From Pseudomonadales bacterium (GTDB lineage: Bacteria; Pseudomonadota; Gammaproteobacteria; Pseudomonadales; DT-91), in assembly GCA_013215055.1 (NCBI GenBank), contig JABSRQ010000007.1, positions 372,001-436,000 on the forward strand: a stretch of 64,000 nucleotides of DNA. Direction: 5' to 3'. Below are positions 8,539 to 61,717 of this stretch, piece after piece. The notes beneath the pieces were generated by a model. It made no database searches, was not told the origin of the DNA, and saw nothing but the letters and a program-made list of their open reading frames with translations. The number at the start of each line of letters is the position of its first letter. The first letter of the stretch is position 1. The translations under genes and the position numbers were made by a program.

Positions 8539-9438
<900 letters not shown>

Positions 9439-9450
9439 CTAAATCAAATT

Positions 9451-9900
9451 TTAAATTCTGTTTGTGTTTCGGCCAACAATGAAAGCGGCCAAAACTTGAT
9501 GTACAACAAATAACAGACCGTAAGTCGCAAAAATCCAGGCCGCACCTACCGGTTGTAACATCTTAAAACTGTATGCAAATAAACCCGCGGTGAGCATAAA
9601 CTTCATACTAGCAGCGCGGTAAAAAGATTGGTTTATAATCATGAAATTCACTTTTGTGATATTTCTAAACACAATCCAGGCAAAAACGCCATTTGGGATC
9701 AAGAAGATTAAGGCACCTACTATCACTGATTTAAAGCCTGCTTCAGCCAGTAGATAGACAGCCGCTATGACCAGTAAAGCAAATAACAGATCGGCGGATA
9801 AAAGCCTGTTTACATCTGTTTTAATTTGTTTTGCTTCGGCCTCACTACCTTTGCGGTTTTTAACATTTTCCGCATCTGTTTTACTATCGGTAGAAGACAT
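9451..9900 (-). CDS. atpI: F1Fo ATP synthase assembly protein I
   Basis: First gene of the atp operon; AtpI proteins help c-ring assembly and are not part of the final enzyme. The 149-residue protein has a charged N-terminal 30 residues (many Lys, Asp, Glu) and four hydrophobic segments (LLFALLVIAAVYLLAEAGF; VIVGALIFLIPNGVFAWIVF; KFMLTAGLFAYSF; WIFATYGLLFVVHQVLAAF). A good sigma70-like promoter lies 30-60 bases upstream of the start. Confidence 0.93.
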   Translation of the reverse strand: MSSTDSKTDAENVKNRKGSEAEAKQIKTDVNRLLSADLLFALLVIAAVYLLAEAGFKSVIVGALIFLIPNGVFAWIVFRNITKVNFMIINQSFYRAASMKFMLTAGLFAYSFKMLQPVGAAWIFATYGLLFVVHQVLAAFIVGRNTNRI

Positions 9901-9931
9901 TTCTCAATAGAGCCATTTTTAAAGCGAGCGA

Positions 9932-10025: not shown

Positions 10026-10964
10026 TTAGCGGCGTAAATGAGCCAGTACGCCGTCTAATTCATCCAGATTATTGTATTTAATCACCAACTTCCCCTTACC
10101 CTTGGCACCATGTTGCACCAGCACACCGGCACCGAGTTTTTGTGATAACTCTTCTTCCAGATTTTTAATGTCGGCCGAAGGTTCGGTTTTCTCAACCGGC
10201 GTCGTGGAAGCTTCTTCTTGAAGTTTACGCACCAGGGATTCTGTTTGACGTACAGAGAGACCTTTGGATACCACCATCTGCGCGGCTTTTGATTGCATAT
10301 CTTCGCTCAGACCTAAAATGGCTCTGGCATGGCCCATTTCCAGGTCGCCATGTTCCAATAAACGTCTGACATCGTCTTTTAAGCTCATCAAACGTAAAAG
10401 ATTGGTCACCGTAGAACGGGATTTACCCACAGCATCCGCCACTTCTTGCTGGGTTAATTCAAATTCTTGCTGCAGTTTATTCAACGCCATCGCTTCTTCG
10501 ATGGGGTTTAAATCTTCCCGCTGAATATTTTCTATAAGCGCCATGGCGATGGCCGCATCATCATCAACATCTTTAACAATAACGGGCACATTGTGTAATT
10601 CAACCATTTGCGCCGCACGCCAGCGACGTTCACCGGCAATAATTTCATATTTTGCAGTGCCGCCACTACGCGATGGGCGCACAATAATTGGCTGCATAAT
10701 GCCCTGGGCTCTAATCGATGCGGCTAAATCTTCCAGCGCCTCGGTGGACATATCTCTGCGTGGCTGATATTTACCCCGCTGCAACCATTCGATAGGCAGA
10801 TTACGTAATTCCGTAGGCTGATCAACTGCGGCTACCGCAGATTGTGCCGTTGCGGCTTCAATATCCGCAGGCTGAATTTTCTTGCTGGGTTTTGTAGCAA
10901 CCGAGGCGTTAGCACTTAATAATGCATCCAATCCTCTTCCCAAACCGCGTTTTTTAGCTGCCAT
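10026..10964 (-). CDS. parB: Chromosome partitioning protein ParB
   Basis: Binds parS near the origin and spreads as a CTP-dependent clamp to organise segregation. The 312-residue protein has the ParB N-terminal domain with the arginine-rich patch GERRWRAAQ and the segment ENIQREDLNPIEEA, then a helix-turn-helix (LTQQEVADAVGKSRSTVTN), and a C-terminal dimerisation region. Starts MAAKKRGLGRGLDALL, the typical family start. It is 64 bases downstream of parA. Two parS-like sites lie inside recF in this same window. Confidence 0.97.
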   Translation of the reverse strand: MAAKKRGLGRGLDALLSANASVATKPSKKIQPADIEAATAQSAVAAVDQPTELRNLPIEWLQRGKYQPRRDMSTEALEDLAASIRAQGIMQPIIVRPSRSGGTAKYEIIAGERRWRAAQMVELHNVPVIVKDVDDDAAIAMALIENIQREDLNPIEEAMALNKLQQEFELTQQEVADAVGKSRSTVTNLLRLMSLKDDVRRLLEHGDLEMGHARAILGLSEDMQSKAAQMVVSKGLSVRQTESLVRKLQEEASTTPVEKTEPSADIKNLEEELSQKLGAGVLVQHGAKGKGKLVIKYNNLDELDGVLAHLRR

Positions 10965-11028
10965 GCGTTTTCTCTGCCTGCGTATATTTTGATGTACTTG
11001 AAATGACGTATTTTAAAGGGCTTAAACC

Positions 11029-11811
11029 TTAAGCTTCAACATATTCTTGCTGATCTTTACGAATTAACTCACCCGCAAACGCTAAATAAGCCATCGCTCC
11101 ACGACTGGCTTTATCGTACATCAGCGCCGGTAAACCAAAACTGGGCGCTTCTGCCAAACGTACATTTCTTGGAATGCAGGTTCTAAACACCTTATCACCA
11201 AAATACTCATGTAATTGTGCAGAAACATCTTTGGTTAAGCTGTTCCTAGGGTCATACATGGTTCTGAGGATGCCACTGATTTCCAGATCTGGATTAGCGA
11301 CTTCTTTGATGCGATTAATCGTGGTCATCAAATCCGATAAACCTTCCAACGCATAATATTCACATTGCATAGGAATAATCACGCCATCGGCAGCGGATAA
11401 ACCATTGATGGTCAGCATGCTTAACGAAGGTGGACAATCCAGGATAATATAATCGTAGCGATCTCTAACCGTATAAAGCGCATCACGCAGGCGATGTTCT
11501 TTGTTTTCAAGGCCTAACAAACCTATTTCAGCCGCGGTTAAATCGGAATTCGTGGCTAATAAATCATAACCAGCTTTGGTTTCGTAGATAATCGCATCTT
11601 CGATCTTGGTATCACCCATCAAAACATCGTAGGCGGCTTCTTCCAATTCGTGTTTGTTTACACCCGAGCCCATGGTGGTATTGCCCTGTGGATCCAGGTC
11701 TACCAATAGGACATTTTTTTTAGTTGCAGCCAAAGAAGCTGCCAGATTGATACTGGTGGTTGTTTTACCCACGCCACCTTTCTGATTCGCTATCGCTAAG
11801 ATTGAGCCCAC
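11029..11811 (-). CDS. parA: Chromosome partitioning ATPase ParA (Soj)
   Basis: Walker-type ATPase that drives origin segregation with ParB. The deviant Walker A KGGVGKTTT is at residues 10-18 with the signature lysine, followed by VDLDPQGN and LDCPPSL (Walker B). 260 residues, usual length. The start is GTG at 11811. It follows rsmG by 36 bases in the order mnmG-rsmG-parA-parB common in gammaproteobacteria. Confidence 0.97.
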   Translation of the reverse strand: MGSILAIANQKGGVGKTTTSINLAASLAATKKNVLLVDLDPQGNTTMGSGVNKHELEEAAYDVLMGDTKIEDAIIYETKAGYDLLATNSDLTAAEIGLLGLENKEHRLRDALYTVRDRYDYIILDCPPSLSMLTINGLSAADGVIIPMQCEYYALEGLSDLMTTINRIKEVANPDLEISGILRTMYDPRNSLTKDVSAQLHEYFGDKVFRTCIPRNVRLAEAPSFGLPALMYDKASRGAMAYLAFAGELIRKDQQEYVEA

Positions 11812-55232: not shown

Positions 55233-55259
55233 ATAGCGGCTTAGCCGCTATATTTTTTG
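55233..55259 (+). terminator. Rho-independent terminator after the YheV-like gene
   Basis: Perfect 8-bp stem ATAGCGGC (55233-55240) / GCCGCTAT (55244-55251) with loop TTA and a T-run after it. It may also help end the convergent arsenosugar operon. Confidence 0.85.
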
Positions 55260-55312: not shown

Positions 55313-55984
55313 TCAAAAACTTTGTATTTCCAGCCATTGATAAAGTTGCCGTTCTTTAGAGCCAAAATGATGTTTGGGTTTATTATCTAACTGCTGTTTG
55401 AGTTGTTTAAGTTCCACCAAGGTATCGATATCATAGGAAAAATCCAATAAAGTTACTGGCTCATTAAGATTCTTTACAAGTTGTTCTAGCGTTGTAGCGT
55501 GGCTGTATGTTGTATTGACCCAGGTGGTTTCTGTGATGGCTTGATTACTGGCAAACAAATAAAATCCGCCGTCATCGGCTGGGCCTATAACAATATTATC
55601 TTCGCCTTCTTGTAATAAAGTGATCGCATTTTGAATGCTTTCAGCGGTTAATAATGGGCAGTCACTGCCAATTATAATAACAATATCCGCCTGTTTTTTT
55701 AACCGGCTATAAACCTGATGTAAACGTTGGCCTAAATCGCCAGGGCCAGTCCATAGCGTGTTTGTTTGCTGCCATAAATTATCTTTTTTATGCTGTTCTT
55801 CGGCTACGGCCCATACTACGTCGATGTTAGTATTTTTATCTTTCAGCTTGTCTAACATAGCCGCCGTGCAGGCCAGACTATGTTGATAAAAAGCTTGAGC
55901 CTGCTCTGTACCAATATCGACGGCTAATCGTGTTTTAACCGGGCTAAGGGCTGGGGTTTTTGCAAATACAGCAAGACTGATCAT
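55313..55984 (-). CDS. TIGR04282-type arsenosugar biosynthesis glycosyltransferase (DUF2064)
   Basis: A 223-residue glycosyltransferase-fold protein of the DUF2064/CofC-like group. SLAVFAKTPALSPVKTRLA is the nucleotide-binding start, IIGSDCPLLTAESI holds the DxD-like acidic site, and GPADDGGFYLFA follows. NCBI names this family for its presence in arsenosugar loci; its exact sugar or nucleotide substrate is unknown. Last gene of the operon. Confidence 0.9.
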   Translation of the reverse strand: MISLAVFAKTPALSPVKTRLAVDIGTEQAQAFYQHSLACTAAMLDKLKDKNTNIDVVWAVAEEQHKKDNLWQQTNTLWTGPGDLGQRLHQVYSRLKKQADIVIIIGSDCPLLTAESIQNAITLLQEGEDNIVIGPADDGGFYLFASNQAITETTWVNTTYSHATTLEQLVKNLNEPVTLLDFSYDIDTLVELKQLKQQLDNKPKHHFGSKERQLYQWLEIQSF

Positions 55985-56008
55985 GTGAATTTATCCTGGC
56001 TATTTATT

Positions 56009-56692
56009 TTAGCTATAACTTTTCCAAAGCCAACGTATAAAAAGGGGCAGCCATTGTTTAAACCAAAGCCAGTTATGCAACAATGAAATGAAAAACCAGC
56101 CGCCCTTCTCGTATTTCCTGGCCGAGGTACTCACCGTCGCAGTGAGAGCTGTTACCGGAATCTGGTTTAAATGGCATAGCCAAACAAAAAAATGGTCTTC
56201 CCCATAAGGCTGGTTTGTATCATAGCCATGCAGTTGGGTAAAAGAACCGTGGTCTATGCAAAAAGCCTGATCACCAAAGGGGGATTTAAGGTAGTGACTA
56301 CGAAACTTTACCCCCAGGCTATTAAGTTTCATACGCTGGCTTAAGAAAGCATTATTAGTATGAAAGTCTAATTGGAAATAGTGCAAGCCTGACGTCGCTG
56401 GTTTTTTAATCAGCTTAAATAATGTTTGCTGAGCGTTTTTATCAATAATGGTATCTGCATGTATAAACCATAACCATTTTCCTGTGGCTGTATTGGCTGC
56501 GGCATTTAATGTCGCCGCCCTGCCTTGATCACAGAAGACGGTTTTAATATGCTTTGGGCCTGAAACTTCTGCACCGGCGAGAATAATTTCGTATTCTTCA
56601 TCTAACAGCTGCAGTTGAGGCAATAACTGCGGCAATAGTGTCTGCCAGCTTTCATCGTCTTTGGCTAATGGAATAATAATAGAGAGCAACAT
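56009..56692 (-). CDS. TIGR04283-type arsenosugar biosynthesis glycosyltransferase
   Basis: Family 2 glycosyltransferase, 227 residues. MLLSIIIPLAKDDESW is the usual GT-A start; GKWLWFIHADTII carries the metal-binding HAD in place of DxD; LKSPFGDQAFCIDH and GEDHFFVWLCH follow. A C-terminal tail with WLWFKQWLPLFIRWLW is hydrophobic and may touch the membrane. It is 24 bases upstream of the DUF2064 partner and 12 bases after arsM. Confidence 0.9.
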   Translation of the reverse strand: MLLSIIIPLAKDDESWQTLLPQLLPQLQLLDEEYEIILAGAEVSGPKHIKTVFCDQGRAATLNAAANTATGKWLWFIHADTIIDKNAQQTLFKLIKKPATSGLHYFQLDFHTNNAFLSQRMKLNSLGVKFRSHYLKSPFGDQAFCIDHGSFTQLHGYDTNQPYGEDHFFVWLCHLNQIPVTALTATVSTSARKYEKGGWFFISLLHNWLWFKQWLPLFIRWLWKSYS

Positions 56693-56704
56693 GCTTTTTT
56701 CCTG

Positions 56705-57760
56705 TTAACAGCAGAGGTTGAGTTCATTATTATCACTGTCATCGGAGCAATCAAAAACACCGTAGTGTTGGCTGAAGTCTCCTATCACTTCAAAGTATTC
56801 ACTGTAACGGGTTTCAGTTAACATTTTTGCGGTATTGCCACATACCGGTACGGGTAAGCCGGTTTTAAATAGATGATGATCATCTAACAAAAAGGCATGT
56901 GGGCTATTTTTAATGCCACCTTTATAAAAGGCAACATGGCCGTAGTTTTCACAGATATCTTCAAAGTCACATTTAAAGGCTCTGATGGTGATGGAGGTGA
57001 AATCGATCATGCCCGCCTGTTGTAAAATCGCTTCATCATGTAATTCAATTTGGCCTTTTTGGGTGGCACGAAAATCTAAGATGTCCAGTCGGTTTAATAG
57101 ACGACGAAAATCTTCCGTATACATCGCACCACCCAAACATTCACCGAGCAATACCGGATCTTGCTGCAGGGTTTTACTGATTCTGCGGCTGGAAAAAACA
57201 TCCGAGAAGTAGAGTTCACCTCCGGGTTTTAATACCCTGAATATCTCTTTAAATACCTGTTCTTTTTCCGGTGATAAATTAATCACGCAGTTGGAAATCA
57301 CCACATCGATGCTATTATCGGCAATGTCAGCACTGCGTAAATCTTCAATATAAGCCTGATGAAATTCTACATTGCTGTGGGAATAATTAAATTTATCCTG
57401 ATGATATTGCTGATATTCTCTGGCAACCGATAACTGCTGTTCGGTCATATCGATGCCTATGACTTTTCCTTTTTCTCCTACCAGCTGGGATAATAAATAT
57501 ACATCACGGCCGGTGCCGCAGCCTAAATCCAGAACCGTCTTACCTTCTAAAGCATGAGGAATAGGCGAGCCGCAGCCGTAGAATTTTTCCTGGATCACCG
57601 GGTGAATATTGCGTAATAACGGGATTAAGTGTTTGGGCATAGCATCGATGGGACAGCAGGCCGAGGTTTTTAAGTCGGCCTTTGTAGCTAAGACTTCACC
57701 ATAATAATTTTTAACACTATCGGCTAGTTGTTGATTATCGATTTGGCTTAAATCATTCAT
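56705..57760 (-). CDS. arsM: Arsenite S-adenosylmethionine methyltransferase
   Basis: Methylates As(III) to mono- and dimethylated arsenic. The AdoMet motif DLGCGTG is at residues 78-84. Four cysteines match the As(III)-binding set known for ArsM: C35 (in SACCP), C63 (YGCG), C158 (SNCVINLSPEKE) and C208 (GECLGGAMY). The spacings 28 and 50 for the first and last pairs equal those of the algal enzyme. The C-terminus ends NLCC, an extra vicinal pair also seen in some ArsM. 351 residues. The eight-base overlap with the sterol desaturase-like gene ties it to the operon. Confidence 0.95.
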   Translation of the reverse strand: MNDLSQIDNQQLADSVKNYYGEVLATKADLKTSACCPIDAMPKHLIPLLRNIHPVIQEKFYGCGSPIPHALEGKTVLDLGCGTGRDVYLLSQLVGEKGKVIGIDMTEQQLSVAREYQQYHQDKFNYSHSNVEFHQAYIEDLRSADIADNSIDVVISNCVINLSPEKEQVFKEIFRVLKPGGELYFSDVFSSRRISKTLQQDPVLLGECLGGAMYTEDFRRLLNRLDILDFRATQKGQIELHDEAILQQAGMIDFTSITIRAFKCDFEDICENYGHVAFYKGGIKNSPHAFLLDDHHLFKTGLPVPVCGNTAKMLTETRYSEYFEVIGDFSQHYGVFDCSDDSDNNELNLCC

Positions 57761-58559
57761 GTGTCTGTCCTGAAAAATGAGTCAAAGGCTGTTTTAATAA
57801 TTGGCTGATACGCTGTTGATCTTCATAGTTGCATCCCTCCAGACCAAATGGCATATCTAATTGCCCGGCCTGGCTATCGTATAAATAACTGGAAAATAGC
57901 CTATCCCAGCAGCTGAGGTTAAAGCCGAAGTTGCAATTGGATTCTTTAATTTGAGTGGAGTGATGCACTCTATGCATATCGGGGCTAACAATAAAATATC
58001 GAATAAAGGTATCGATTTTTTTAGGTATATAAACATTGCCATGATTAAACAAGGCCAGGGCATTTAATAGAATTTCAAAAATTAAAATAGCTTGCGCAGA
58101 TATACCTAAAATAATCACCGCAGTGGCTTTTATAAAAACGGATAAAACAATTTCTAAGGGGTGAAAACGCAGCGCCGTACTACTATCAAAGGCCAAATCG
58201 CTATGATGCACCCGATGTAGCCGCCATAAAACCGGCACAACATGAAACAGCCTATGCTGCCAATAAATCAGTAAATCTAACAGCACTAATACAATGATTA
58301 ATTCTAGCCATGCAGGCAGTTGGATGAGGTGCATCAGACCCCATTGTTTTGCATGGACTATCAACGCAAGCCCGGATAAACCTATAGGCATAACCAGCTT
58401 GGCGGCAAGACTATTGATGATGGTTAGCGAGATATGGTGCCGCCAGCGCTGCAGCGTATACTTGCCTAAATCTCTCCTGGGGCTGATATTTTGCCATAAC
58501 AGCATAAAAGATAAAACGGAAAAAAATACGCTTAGGCGCAGCAGGATATCTAGTGGCAT
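57753..58559 (-). CDS. Sterol desaturase / fatty acid hydroxylase superfamily membrane protein
   Basis: A 268-residue membrane di-iron oxygenase. Histidine motifs: HRLFH (HX3H), HRVHHSD (HX2HH) and MHRVHHS (second HX2HH), with further HGN in LFNHGNVYIP. Four or so hydrophobic segments are visible (LLLRLSVFFSVLSFMLLW, LAAKLVMPIGLSGLALIV, LELIIVLVLLDLLIYW, AVIILGISAQAILIFEILL). The substrate is unknown; its place between arsS and arsM suggests a lipid or lipid-linked arsenic compound, which is inference. Gap of 18 bases after arsS. Confidence 0.9.
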   Translation of the reverse strand: MPLDILLRLSVFFSVLSFMLLWQNISPRRDLGKYTLQRWRHHISLTIINSLAAKLVMPIGLSGLALIVHAKQWGLMHLIQLPAWLELIIVLVLLDLLIYWQHRLFHVVPVLWRLHRVHHSDLAFDSSTALRFHPLEIVLSVFIKATAVIILGISAQAILIFEILLNALALFNHGNVYIPKKIDTFIRYFIVSPDMHRVHHSTQIKESNCNFGFNLSCWDRLFSSYLYDSQAGQLDMPFGLEGCNYEDQQRISQLLKQPLTHFSGQTHE

Positions 58560-58577
58560 GATGGAAACCTATAGCGT

Positions 58578-59576
58578 TTATACAAGGCTGCCTCCACAGG
58601 ATGAACCACTGCCTGCGGTGCAGGCAAAACAATGATCGGCCACCGCAATAAAAGTATTGATATCATCAAAACGTTGAATAGAAAAAATGTCTAAGGTTTT
58701 ACCCGACACCGGAATATCTAACATCTGATTAAAGTCACAATCATAAATAGCGCCATCGAAGCCAATCGAAATCTGGTTTTTACACATCACATTGTCTAAC
58801 GCATCCGGATTGAAGTTATCCAGCAAAAGCTGCATATAATCTTCTAACAAACCGTCACGGTGTAACTGATGTTCAAAACGTTTTATCGGCATATTGGTGA
58901 TGGCGTATAACTGATTAAATTGAATGCCAAAATCCTGAAACAGCTTGTCTTTGTAGTCGCGTTCTAACTGTTGCTGTGGCGGCGGCAAAAAAGCCCCGCC
59001 GGGGTTATAGACTAAATCCAATTTTAAGTTTTCATCTGTGCCATAACCTAGAGCATTCAATAGTTGCAGGGCCTGTATACTTTTCTCAAATACATTTTTA
59101 CCGCGCTGTGCATCGACATTTTTTTGTGAATAACACGGTAAAGAGGCAACAATATGAATGCCTTGGTCGGCAAGGAAATTAGCGGTATCTTCCTGCCCGG
59201 CTTCAAATAAAATGGTTAGATTACAGCGGTTGATGACCTTTTTACCCATGGCCCGAATCGCCGTCACAAAGCGACGAAAATGTGGATTTAGTTCCGGTGC
59301 CCCACCGGTAATATCCACGGTTAAAATGTTTTTATCTTGTTCTAACAAGGTTAATAGGCGGTCAATACTCTCGCCATTCATGTTTTCTGTATGGTCGGGG
59401 CCAGATTCTACATGGCAGTGATGACAGGCTTGATTGCAGCGTTTGCCGATATTTAACTGCAAGGTGGTGATTTTGTCACGTCGCAAGGTTTTATCAGCCT
59501 GTTTGATCTGCTGGGCAAAAGACGTGCTTGTGATAATATTGTTAATAGCTGCACTCGCCGTGTTGACGTTATTCAC
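58578..59576 (-). CDS. arsS: Arsenosugar biosynthesis radical SAM protein ArsS
   Basis: Radical SAM enzyme that, in the known pathway, joins dimethylarsenic to the 5'-deoxyadenosyl group. The iron-sulfur cysteines are C47, C51 and C54 in GKRCNQACHHCHVESG. DITGGAPELNPHFRRFV and NPGGAFLPPPQQQLE are typical of the ArsS family (TIGR04167), and the C-terminal cysteine cluster CFACTAGSGSSCGGS is intact. Some members use selenocysteine in this region; here every site is cysteine. 332 residues. Overlaps the FAD enzyme gene by eight bases. Confidence 0.95.
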   Translation of the reverse strand: MNNVNTASAAINNIITSTSFAQQIKQADKTLRRDKITTLQLNIGKRCNQACHHCHVESGPDHTENMNGESIDRLLTLLEQDKNILTVDITGGAPELNPHFRRFVTAIRAMGKKVINRCNLTILFEAGQEDTANFLADQGIHIVASLPCYSQKNVDAQRGKNVFEKSIQALQLLNALGYGTDENLKLDLVYNPGGAFLPPPQQQLERDYKDKLFQDFGIQFNQLYAITNMPIKRFEHQLHRDGLLEDYMQLLLDNFNPDALDNVMCKNQISIGFDGAIYDCDFNQMLDIPVSGKTLDIFSIQRFDDINTFIAVADHCFACTAGSGSSCGGSLV

Positions 59577-61011
59577 CGTGTAACCTTCTTATTTTATGAA
59601 ACAGCTTTAAAAAAACTAAAGCCAGTCTTGGAATATGTTTTTTACGCCACTCGCTGGCGACAAATTTATTGGCTTCACTCCAGCTGGGGTAAATATGTAA
59701 GGTGGCCAGAATTTTATTTAACCCCAGGCCGTGAGTTTTCGCTAGCGCAAATTCTGCCAATAATTCACCGCCATGTTCTGCAACAATCGTCACACCTAAT
59801 ATCTTGTCTGTGCCGGGTTTGCTTAACACCTTTATAAACCCCTGATTTTTACCTTCACAGATGGCTCTATCCAAATCTTTTAAGTCGTAACGGCTTACCT
59901 CGCAGGCAATGCCCTTTGTTTTAGCCTCTTGTTCGTTGATGCCTAATCGGGCGATTTGGGGGTCAACAAAGGTACACCAGGCCATATTGTCGTAATTCAC
60001 CCTAAAACGTTTGATCGGTGAAAATAATGCATTGACTGTGGCGTACCAGGCCTGATGAGACGCGGCATGGGTAAATTGATAGGGCCCGGTCACATCTCCA
60101 CAAACATAGATGTTTTTGATATTCGTCTGCAAAAATCCATTGCTGCTAATGCGCCGTTGTGGGCTGATTTCCAAGCCTAATTGCTCCAGCCCAAAACCTG
60201 AAATACTGGCCGTGCGCCCCAAGGCGATAAGGATTTTATCAAAGCTTAGTGTCACTGTTTCATCGTGATGGCTGAATTGAGCGGTGTTAGACTCGGCATC
60301 AATAGCCTGTAGTTGATGATTAAGCAGGCAGTCTATGCCTTCTTTTTCAAACTGTTGTAGCAAGCTTTGACTTACATCTTCATCTTCCACTTTTAATAAA
60401 CGGCTGTTTCTATCGGCTATGGTTACCTGGCTGCCAAGGCGCTGGAAAGCTTGCGCCATTTCTACGCCGATAGGTCCACCACCTAAGACCAATAGTTTTT
60501 GGGGCAGCTGGGTTAATTGCCAGAGAGTGTCGCTGCTGAGATAGTCACTCTTATCAAGGCCTGGAATATCAGGCACAAAAGCTTTGGCTCCGGTGGCGAT
60601 GATGATGCTTCTGCAACTGAGGGTTTTATCACCCACACGTACATGATGGGCGTCTTCTACAAAGGCCTTGTCTTGAAAACATTCCACCCCCAGGCCGGTA
60701 AAGCGTTCAACCGAATCGTGTGGTTCGATGGCGGCAATCGCACCGTGTACATGTTGCATCACCGCAGAGAAATCTATCTCAGGTTCGGCACAAGAAATGC
60801 CAAATCGACTCGCATGACGAATTTCATGAGCGGTCTTGGCCGCTTTAATCAACGCCTTGCTGGGTACACAGCCTGTATTCAGGCAATCACCACCCATCTT
60901 GTCGGCTTCGATTAACGCCACCTTGGCCTGTGTGGCGGCGGCGATAAGCGAGGCCACTAAACCGCCGGAGCCTGCACCTATCACAATGACGTTATAGTCG
61001 TATTTAGTCAT
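59569..61011 (-). CDS. FAD-dependent pyridine nucleotide-disulfide oxidoreductase (MerA/Lpd-like)
   Basis: A 480-residue flavoenzyme. GAGSGGLVASLIA (residues 12-24) binds FAD, GGDCLNTGCVPSKAL holds the redox pair C43/C48, and GGGPIGVEMAQAF binds NAD(P)H. The C-terminal region reads IYPSWSEANKF where lipoamide dehydrogenases have the catalytic His (HAHPTxSE), and the MerA vicinal Cys pair at the C-terminus is missing. So it is neither a true mercuric reductase nor a standard dehydrogenase. It overlaps arsS and the TVP38 gene by eight bases each and is part of the operon. Confidence 0.93.
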   Translation of the reverse strand: MTKYDYNVIVIGAGSGGLVASLIAAATQAKVALIEADKMGGDCLNTGCVPSKALIKAAKTAHEIRHASRFGISCAEPEIDFSAVMQHVHGAIAAIEPHDSVERFTGLGVECFQDKAFVEDAHHVRVGDKTLSCRSIIIATGAKAFVPDIPGLDKSDYLSSDTLWQLTQLPQKLLVLGGGPIGVEMAQAFQRLGSQVTIADRNSRLLKVEDEDVSQSLLQQFEKEGIDCLLNHQLQAIDAESNTAQFSHHDETVTLSFDKILIALGRTASISGFGLEQLGLEISPQRRISSNGFLQTNIKNIYVCGDVTGPYQFTHAASHQAWYATVNALFSPIKRFRVNYDNMAWCTFVDPQIARLGINEQEAKTKGIACEVSRYDLKDLDRAICEGKNQGFIKVLSKPGTDKILGVTIVAEHGGELLAEFALAKTHGLGLNKILATLHIYPSWSEANKFVASEWRKKHIPRLALVFLKLFHKIRRLHGE

Positions 61012-61717
61012 GGGCCTGCTCCATCTTGGCTCGGAAATAGTGCATGAGTTTTTTACTGATTAGCGGAAATAAACCCAATAAAACAAACGCGGCTATTAAA
61101 CCCGGTGAGCTGATATCCGACAGCTGGCGAATTTTTCCCAGCTCCGTGCCTGCATAAACATAAACACAGGTTCCAGCTAACATGCCGAGTTGGCTAACCC
61201 AATAAAAGGTCCAGGTTTTAATCGGCAATAAACCCATAAGCAGATTAACCATAAAAAACGGGAATAAAGGCACCAGCCTTAATGCAAACAAATAGAAGGC
61301 CCCCTCTTCTTTAAAACCTTGATGAAAGCGGGGTAATTGCTGCGAAAAACGTTGTTTTAGCTTTTCTCCTAATATAAATCTGGCCATTAAAAAAGCCAGA
61401 GTTGCTCCCAGACTACTGGCAAAGGAGACTAACAATAACCCTTGCCAGAAACCAAATAAGCTACCGGCGATCAATGTCATCAAGCTGGCGGCGGGTAGCG
61501 AAAAGGCGGTGATTAAAAGATAGAGTATAAAAAAACCGATAAGAAAGCTTAGCGCATACTGTTGCTGCCAGGATTGCCAGAGCCGATGTTGCTGTTCAAT
61601 ACCCTGTAATGAAAACAGCTCTGTACCACCGAGTTGATAAAAACCAACAACAACGGCGCTGAAAAATAAAAATAACAGCCCTCTGGCGATACTTGTTGAC
61701 GGGCCTGGCTGTGACAT
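61004..61717 (-). CDS. TVP38/TMEM64 (DedA-like) membrane protein
   Basis: A 237-residue membrane protein of the VTT/SNARE-associated domain group. Typical segments are FSLPAASLMTLIAGSLFGFW, GATLAFLMARFILGE and FLFALRLVPLFPFF-type (YLFALRLVPLFPFFMVN). At least five hydrophobic segments. First gene of the operon. The ATG at 61717 has AGGA eight bases upstream; the open frame to 61762 adds 15 residues without a ribosome site. Such proteins often precede a Lpd/MerA-like enzyme in genomes. Confidence 0.9.
   Translation of the reverse strand: MSQPGPSTSIARGLLFLFFSAVVVGFYQLGGTELFSLQGIEQQHRLWQSWQQQYALSFLIGFFILYLLITAFSLPAASLMTLIAGSLFGFWQGLLLVSFASSLGATLAFLMARFILGEKLKQRFSQQLPRFHQGFKEEGAFYLFALRLVPLFPFFMVNLLMGLLPIKTWTFYWVSQLGMLAGTCVYVYAGTELGKIRQLSDISSPGLIAAFVLLGLFPLISKKLMHYFRAKMEQAHD

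Follow-up and report, generated by a model that had tools for sequence, protein, structure and literature searches.

A sterol desaturase-superfamily oxygenase as a recurrent partner of arsS, and its place in a putative arsenosugar operon of a Pseudomonadales bacterium

We analysed a 64,000-nucleotide stretch of the genome of a Pseudomonadales bacterium (hereafter, the window), in which seven leftward genes form an operon of the arsenosugar type. In the order of transcription, they encode a VTT-domain membrane protein, a flavin adenine dinucleotide (FAD)-dependent oxidoreductase (the flavoprotein), the radical S-adenosylmethionine (SAM) protein ArsS, a membrane oxygenase of the FA_hydroxylase/sterol desaturase superfamily (FAH), the methyltransferase ArsM, a TIGR04283-like protein and a TIGR04282 protein. 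The oxygenase gene turned out to recur together with arsS throughout the class to which the bacterium belongs, and not to be a peculiarity of one genome. We propose, with a probability of about 45%, that the operon specifies a pathway for arsenosugars, probably for arsenosugar lipids, with the later steps and the lipid-related roles of the oxygenase and of the VTT protein as set out below. The window genome is a 7.19-Mb draft in 460 contigs, estimated as 84.7% complete. Protein families were assigned by NCBIfam and Pfam profile scans against curated cut-offs.

Association of the oxygenase with arsS

In a sample of 369 genomes of the class, in which arsS was called at E <= 1e-60 and the oxygenase at E <= 1e-35, arsS was present in 183 genomes and the oxygenase in 172; both were found in 146 genomes, only arsS in 37, only the oxygenase in 26, and neither in 160. 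The oxygenase accompanied arsS in 146/183 genomes, as compared with 26/186 genomes that lacked arsS (odds ratio 24, Fisher p 1.7e-39, uncorrected for kinship). This co-occurrence search had been suggested in an earlier note on the same DNA, and its outcome agrees with the link proposed there. When the comparison was confined to the 32 listed families that were mixed for arsS, the oxygenase was present in 41/48 genomes with arsS and in 10/43 without it (Mantel-Haenszel odds ratio 18.5, p 1e-6). Among 56 genomes of close relatives, the oxygenase stood near arsS only within the window genus, as if it had been inserted into the operon once, and such a one-off insertion was ruled out by the class sample.

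The two genes were also close to each other in many genomes. The distance between them was at most 12 kb in 34 of the 105 class genomes (the window included) in which both positions were among the matches listed, where chance alone would give about 1 of 105, by an estimate that assumes random positions and a genome size of about 3 Mb. When the 60 best-scoring arsS loci of the class were taken regardless of the oxygenase, 19 of them contained an oxygenase gene within 8 kb, always on the strand of arsS (19/19); 18 of these 60 stretches were shorter than 16 kb owing to contig ends. Absence of the desaturase-like gene from all other arsS loci, which the earlier note had named as the result that would speak against it, was clearly not what we observed. 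The same 60 loci contained genes for TIGR04282 (34 loci), ArsM (25), VTT (24), the flavoprotein (17) and TIGR04283 (7).

Altogether, arsS and the oxygenase were found in 44 loci, which include loci picked for gene closeness plus a few others, and in 42 of them the two genes were on the same strand. Their arrangement was of several kinds. The oxygenase gene was located directly after arsS (L060, L061, L217, L233), directly before arsS (L084, L106, L114, L131, L172, L218), before TIGR04282 (L085, L097, L102, L132) or after the flavoprotein gene (L234, L235), while in 25 loci FAH and VTT formed a pair set to one side, and L091, L236 and L256 matched none of the other arrangements. In the window and in 16 linked loci, the oxygenase adjoined a pathway gene (arsS, TIGR04282 or flavoprotein), with 2-190 bases between the profile matches, as distinct from the genes themselves. 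On a tree of 154 oxygenases, the linkage with arsS required 21 changes, compared with a mean of 39 after shuffling. The link between the oxygenase and arsS was likely gained repeatedly, as indicated by the several arrangements more than by the tree. The seven-gene order of the window was identical in two of the four other genomes of the genus (G370 and G372), with proteins 35-62% identical to those of the window; arsS was not found in the other two (G369 and G371).

Adenine removal and the phosphorylase beside arsS

The earlier note had pointed out that no separate nucleosidase for the removal of adenine is present in the operon, and had ascribed this step to one of the unassigned genes or to a distant one. 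As regards the window locus this was correct, and one candidate is encoded elsewhere in the genome: the single match to PF01048, located on another contig, is an S-methyl-5'-thioinosine phosphorylase (353.9 bits, cut-off 223). We take the product of ArsS to be similar in shape to methylthioadenosine. As regards other genomes, the picture was different. Inspection by eye of those gene clusters that recurred in 5 or more of 62 loci had suggested that no nucleosidase accompanies arsS loci, which was overturned when 86 arsS-bearing sequences were searched directly. A phosphorylase was found in two of them, L217 and L233, both from the set picked for gene closeness. In L217, the genes follow in the order VTT, flavoprotein, arsS, oxygenase, phosphorylase, TIGR04283 and TIGR04282, which is the order of the window without arsM and with the phosphorylase inserted, whereas in L233 the phosphorylase gene is divergent from arsS. 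These two enzymes were scanned with the methylthioadenosine phosphorylase (MTAP) model TIGR01694 (cut-off 274.85), and both passed it, with 287.2 bits for L217 and 314 bits for L233; they differ from MTAP in standing beside arsS.

When the L217 protein was compared with 80 arsS-bearing genomes of the order, 75 had a match. The matches fell into two groups: 13/75 scored 215-246 bits, and all of these were located within 7 kb of arsS, so that the lack of a linked nucleosidase does not extend to these genomes, nor to the operon of L217; the other 62/75 scored 173 bits or less, and none of them was near arsS. In 74 genomes of the order without arsS, no phosphorylase match fell between 174 and 331 bits. 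One subfamily of methylthioadenosine phosphorylase is, for part of the order, linked with arsS, since the matches of 215-246 bits were all near arsS and none occurred in the 74 genomes that lack it. Among themselves, the 13 linked phosphorylases and that of L233 are 56-95% alike; their identity to the enzyme of the window genome is 35-40%. Their genes are located just upstream of arsS in L258, L259, L261 and L263, divergently from it in L233, L260 and L262, and on the opposite strand, beyond the transferase genes, in L264-L270.

Apart from these, the 105 loci examined included two with a second kind of PF01048 gene and no arsS in the locus: in L144, a gene resembling nucleoside phosphorylases (9345-9926) immediately precedes the oxygenase gene, and L149 has an open reading frame (ORF) 50% identical to it (8969-9916).

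Proteins encoded by the operon

The features of the locus are as follows (position in the window, strand, description and score).

61004..61717, minus strand: VTT-domain (TVP38/DedA-like) membrane protein; PF09335, 82.5 bits, over the Pfam cut-off
59569..61011, minus strand: FAD/pyridine-nucleotide disulfide oxidoreductase, mercuric reductase/lipoamide dehydrogenase-like; PF07992, 216.8 bits
58578..59576, minus strand: arsS, arsenosugar radical SAM protein, all-Cys form, GTG start; TIGR04167, 444.5 bits (cut-off 300)
57753..58559, minus strand: FA_hydroxylase/sterol desaturase-superfamily membrane oxygenase (FAH); PF04116, 100.1 bits (cut-off 31)
56705..57760, minus strand: arsM, arsenite methyltransferase; solved arsenite methyltransferase 5evj, E 4.1e-100
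56009..56692, minus strand: TIGR04283-like family 2 glycosyltransferase; TIGR04283, 138.9 bits (below the cut-off of 182); PF00535, 29.4 (cut-off 23.3)
55313..55984, minus strand: TIGR04282 protein, probable CofC-like nucleotidyltransferase; TIGR04282, 138.8 bits (cut-off 134)
55233..55251, no strand assigned: inverted repeat of 8 pairs past the last gene, resembling a terminator on either strand; sequence scan

The seven genes are joined by three 8-base overlaps and by gaps of 18, 12 and 24 bases, and in this respect the ORF list of the window reproduces the earlier description to the base. The VTT gene is predicted to start at the ATG at 61717, which has a Shine-Dalgarno-like AGGAA just 5' of it; a longer alternative spans 61762-61004. 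Terminator-like sites in the region were not above chance (10 found, 8.0 expected from shuffles), and promoter motif matches at the operon were no more frequent than in shuffles. A divergent plus-strand reading frame extends from 61912 past the window end, and by eye it contains what looks like a histidine-kinase H-box (HEIRTPMNG).

The identification of the operon as one of the arsenosugar type, made in the earlier note, is upheld by the TIGR04167 score of ArsS together with the ArsM-type methyltransferase. ArsS also matches PF12345 (189 bits), and its translation carries a CX3CX2C motif; by its profile score, it is a member of TIGR04167, to which the formation of 5'-deoxyadenosyl-dimethylarsenic would be assigned by family. 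The best NCBIfam model for ArsM was NF008823, with 191 bits against a cut-off of 263, and the arsenosugar ArsM model NF038099 gave 114.2 bits, short of its cut-off of 400. Residues 9-340 of ArsM align with 5evj at the E-value given above, and 4kw7 was matched at E 1.1e-91; the protein is closer to these solved arsenite methyltransferases of 377-387 residues, which are presumably algal, than to 8xt7 of 321 residues (E 2e-66). According to PMC8552651, the first steps towards arsenosugars are carried out in Synechocystis by SsArsS together with SsArsM, and PMC12159101 describes the adenosylation of arsenic by a radical SAM enzyme. The window operon resembles the SsArsM/SsArsS pathway in both core enzymes by family (ArsS over the TIGR04167 cut-off, ArsM by similarity to relatives of solved structure), but it differs in having five more genes in one operon, the membrane oxygenase among them.

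The best-scoring solved chain for the flavoprotein was mercuric reductase 5x1y (E 1.5e-68); the protein reached no NCBIfam cut-off, MerA TIGR02053 giving 361 bits against 454. In the arsS locus L226, the VTT and flavoprotein genes are separated by an ORF (10289-11557) that looks like a cytochrome and has several CXXCH motifs. The DedA proteins of COG0398 have been proposed as phospholipid scramblases, and some are fused to this type of flavoprotein (PMC10127716). The succession of VTT and flavoprotein genes in the window recalls these pairs of a COG0398/TVP38-type DedA protein and a disulfide oxidoreductase; unlike in the fused forms, the two are separate genes within an arsenic operon, and the likeness of the VTT protein to COG0398 is one of description.

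Ten histidines of the oxygenase (H102, H106, H115, H118, H119, H133, H173, H196, H199 and H200) are invariant in 27 relatives, in the layout HX3H, HX2HH, H133, H173 and HX2HH. A search by sequence returned no solved relatives at E up to 1. Its AlphaFold2 model (predicted local distance difference test score, pLDDT, 86.7) gave two matches in Foldseek, the better of which was a weak one with the fatty-acid hydroxylase Scs7p (4zr0, E 0.82); the alignment of the two by VIA-align 2 covered 188 residues with 19% identity and a middling Z of 7.5. Characterised members of PF04116 use lipids or sterols as substrates, and the model fits that of a lipid-acting member of this superfamily, with which the protein shares conserved histidines and membrane helices. 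The nearest named model is the ornithine lipid hydroxylase OlsE; identity with OlsE was rejected, as NF052566 has a cut-off of 475 bits and gave only 81.5.

The TIGR04282 protein passed PF09837 as well as the CofC family PF01983 (26.6 bits, cut-off 22). Its AlphaFold2 model (pLDDT 93) aligned best with 3cgx (Z 25.9), which is titled a putative nucleotide-diphospho-sugar transferase, followed by 2i5e (19.6), 7p97 (18.9) and Rv2983 (17.1); ranks 2-14 were nucleotidyltransferases or proteins described as putative or of unknown function, and the first glycosyltransferase was mannosylglycerate synthase 2y4j, with Z 13.0. Since the CofC-like proteins align with higher Z than the first glycosyltransferase and the CofC Pfam cut-off is passed, the TIGR04282 protein is probably a CofC-like nucleotidyltransferase and not a glycosyltransferase. 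It would share its fold with CofC, FbiD and 3-phosphoglycerate guanylyltransferase (7p97) (Z 17-20 over 190-192 residues) without being a CofC itself, as the CofC model TIGR03552 gave E 1.9e-8 and 34.1 bits, below its cut-off of 105. The TIGR04283-like protein may then be the glycosyltransferase that uses the TIGR04282 product. The NCBIfam names of both families already include 'arsenosugar biosynthesis'.

Proposed pathway and other roles of the oxygenase

In the arsenosugar-lipid pathway that we propose, ArsM would make methylated arsenite and ArsS would add a 5'-deoxyadenosyl group, both steps being established in other members and assigned here by family. Adenine may be removed by phosphorolysis by a phosphorylase of the methylthioadenosine/methylthioinosine type, and phosphorolysis would yield arsenoribose-1-phosphate, a fitting substrate for TIGR04282 as a nucleotidyltransferase. 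The latter, judged by its fold, would convert it to a nucleoside diphosphate (NDP)-arsenosugar, from which the TIGR04283-like glycosyltransferase could transfer the arsenosugar to a membrane acceptor. The oxygenase might hydroxylate a lipid moiety, either that of the acceptor or that of the product, the VTT protein might carry the lipid across the membrane, and the flavoprotein might hold arsenic or thiols in the reduced state.

Several observations weigh against this reading. The association of the oxygenase with arsS was weak in the order of the window, where the oxygenase, called at a stricter threshold (E 1e-40), was present in 35/125 genomes with arsS and 43/265 without it (odds ratio 2.0, p 0.01), and the well-supported branches of the oxygenase tree alone force just 2 changes of linkage. 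As many as 37/183 arsS-bearing genomes of the class lack the oxygenase, which indicates that the core pathway can do without it. Among the closest named relatives of the oxygenase, 78/80 had no arsS in the surrounding stretch examined, and 17/26 class genomes with FAH and without arsS also lacked TIGR04282 at E 1e-20; the remaining 9/26 had it, as did 4/44 chosen genomes with neither FAH nor arsS. Two proteins of the operon, TIGR04283 and ArsM, score under curated cut-offs. As for the removal of adenine, the only candidate of the window genome is a methylthioinosine phosphorylase, which, by name, prefers a deaminated substrate, and no phosphorylase was found near arsS in any of the 60 class loci taken without picking (0/60), in the window or in the two same-genus loci. 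The 14 linked phosphorylases all belong to one order, within which they represent three families. Moreover, five genomes of the order without arsS have phosphorylases (331-366 bits) that resemble the L217 enzyme more closely than the linked group does, so the L217 phosphorylase may be an ordinary enzyme that moved in.

The 80 best oxygenase relatives from named genomes were from Alpha-, Beta- and Gammaproteobacteria, Nitrospirota, Acidobacteria and others, and arsS was present in the examined stretch only in L167 (Thioglobus) and L172 (Hydrogenophilales). This ruled out an oxygenase dedicated to arsenosugars: the subfamily, whose closest named members mostly have no arsS nearby, is not specific for arsenic. 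As the oxygenase also occurs without the arsenic pathway, the main rival to our reading is that it is a general membrane-lipid hydroxylase used under metal(loid), sulfur or oxidative stress, which stands beside arsS because the same stresses induce both and has no arsenical substrate, an explanation that we regard as possible though doubtful. It would account for the weak association in the order, as well as for the company that the oxygenase keeps. An ArsR-rhodanese regulator gene, usually divergent, was found in 19/80 named oxygenase loci and 19/44 arsS-linked loci, and the YCRGPxC of its rhodanese part was invariant in 24 aligned members. FAH was followed by VTT in 38 loci, and a rhodanese domain came right after in 28 of these; this module of ArsR-rhodanese and VTT-rhodanese occurs both with and without arsS. 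However, the two same-genus loci contained no ArsR-rhodanese match, the oxygenase adjoins a pathway gene in the window and the 16 linked loci described above, and the class-level association with arsS is strong within families.

In this module the domains are fused, ArsR to rhodanese near the oxygenase (L146, 7970-8653, and 39 other ORFs) and VTT to rhodanese after the oxygenase (L160, 10765-11817). In L184 and L251, an ORF upstream of the oxygenase looks MtnB-like; we take it to resemble the methylthioribulose-phosphate dehydratase (MtnB) of methionine salvage.

We consider it improbable that the oxygenase acts on the arsenical or the sugar instead of a lipid, e.g., as an oxidase of trivalent arsenic or a hydroxylase of the ribose moiety. 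In the window genus its gene is immediately flanked by arsS and arsM, and this position, like the recurrence of the arsS link, would suit such a role, but the substrates of characterised PF04116 members, the match with Scs7p as the best solved one, and the scarcity of arsS near the closest named relatives do not. Least probable, and disfavoured, is that the oxygenase was inserted into the operon of the window genus by chance, its spread elsewhere reflecting a shared lifestyle: the weak association in the order and the presence of arsS and the oxygenase on separate contigs in several relatives (e.g., G377, G392, G395 and G402) are consistent with it, but not the 34/105 genomes with the two genes within 12 kb, nor the same-strand placement and several arrangements of the linked loci.

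Radical SAM proteins other than ArsS were observed near the oxygenase as well. L141 (10168-11175), from a Novosphingobium metagenome-assembled genome (MAG), encodes a second radical SAM family, with relatives in L213, L204, L211 and L186 (57-61% identity) and in L192 (82% over 60 residues). Its gene neighbours encode TIGR04283 (216 bits) and TIGR04282 (202 bits), both over the cut-off, VTT and the flavoprotein; the radical SAM protein itself reached no listed NCBIfam cut-off, with the Rv1681 family as the best (97 of 380), and TIGR04167 at 64 of 300. In L196 (1565-4222), from an Elusimicrobia MAG, a single 885-aa ORF combines a radical SAM domain and one that is ArsM-like; genes like those of the window oxygenase, TIGR04283, TIGR04282, VTT and flavoprotein lie downstream of it, and no ArsS match was found there.

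A broader version of the arsenosugar-lipid pathway, in which the operon and one phosphorylase would make up the complete route from the ArsS product to an arsenolipid, and the alphaproteobacterial set with the other radical SAM protein would make a related product, seems to us unlikely.

A search of the open-access literature found nothing that connects a gene of the sterol desaturase type with operons for arsenosugars or arsenic. As far as this search shows, the oxygenase as a recurrent partner of arsS is new, while the first steps by ArsM and ArsS were already known. Taken together, our results name specific candidates for the steps that follow ArsS, namely, the arsS-linked phosphorylase, a protein labelled as a glycosyltransferase that is probably a nucleotidyltransferase, and the conserved oxygenase of the membrane. 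These candidates bear on how arsenosugars reach lipids, and each of them can be deleted or expressed.

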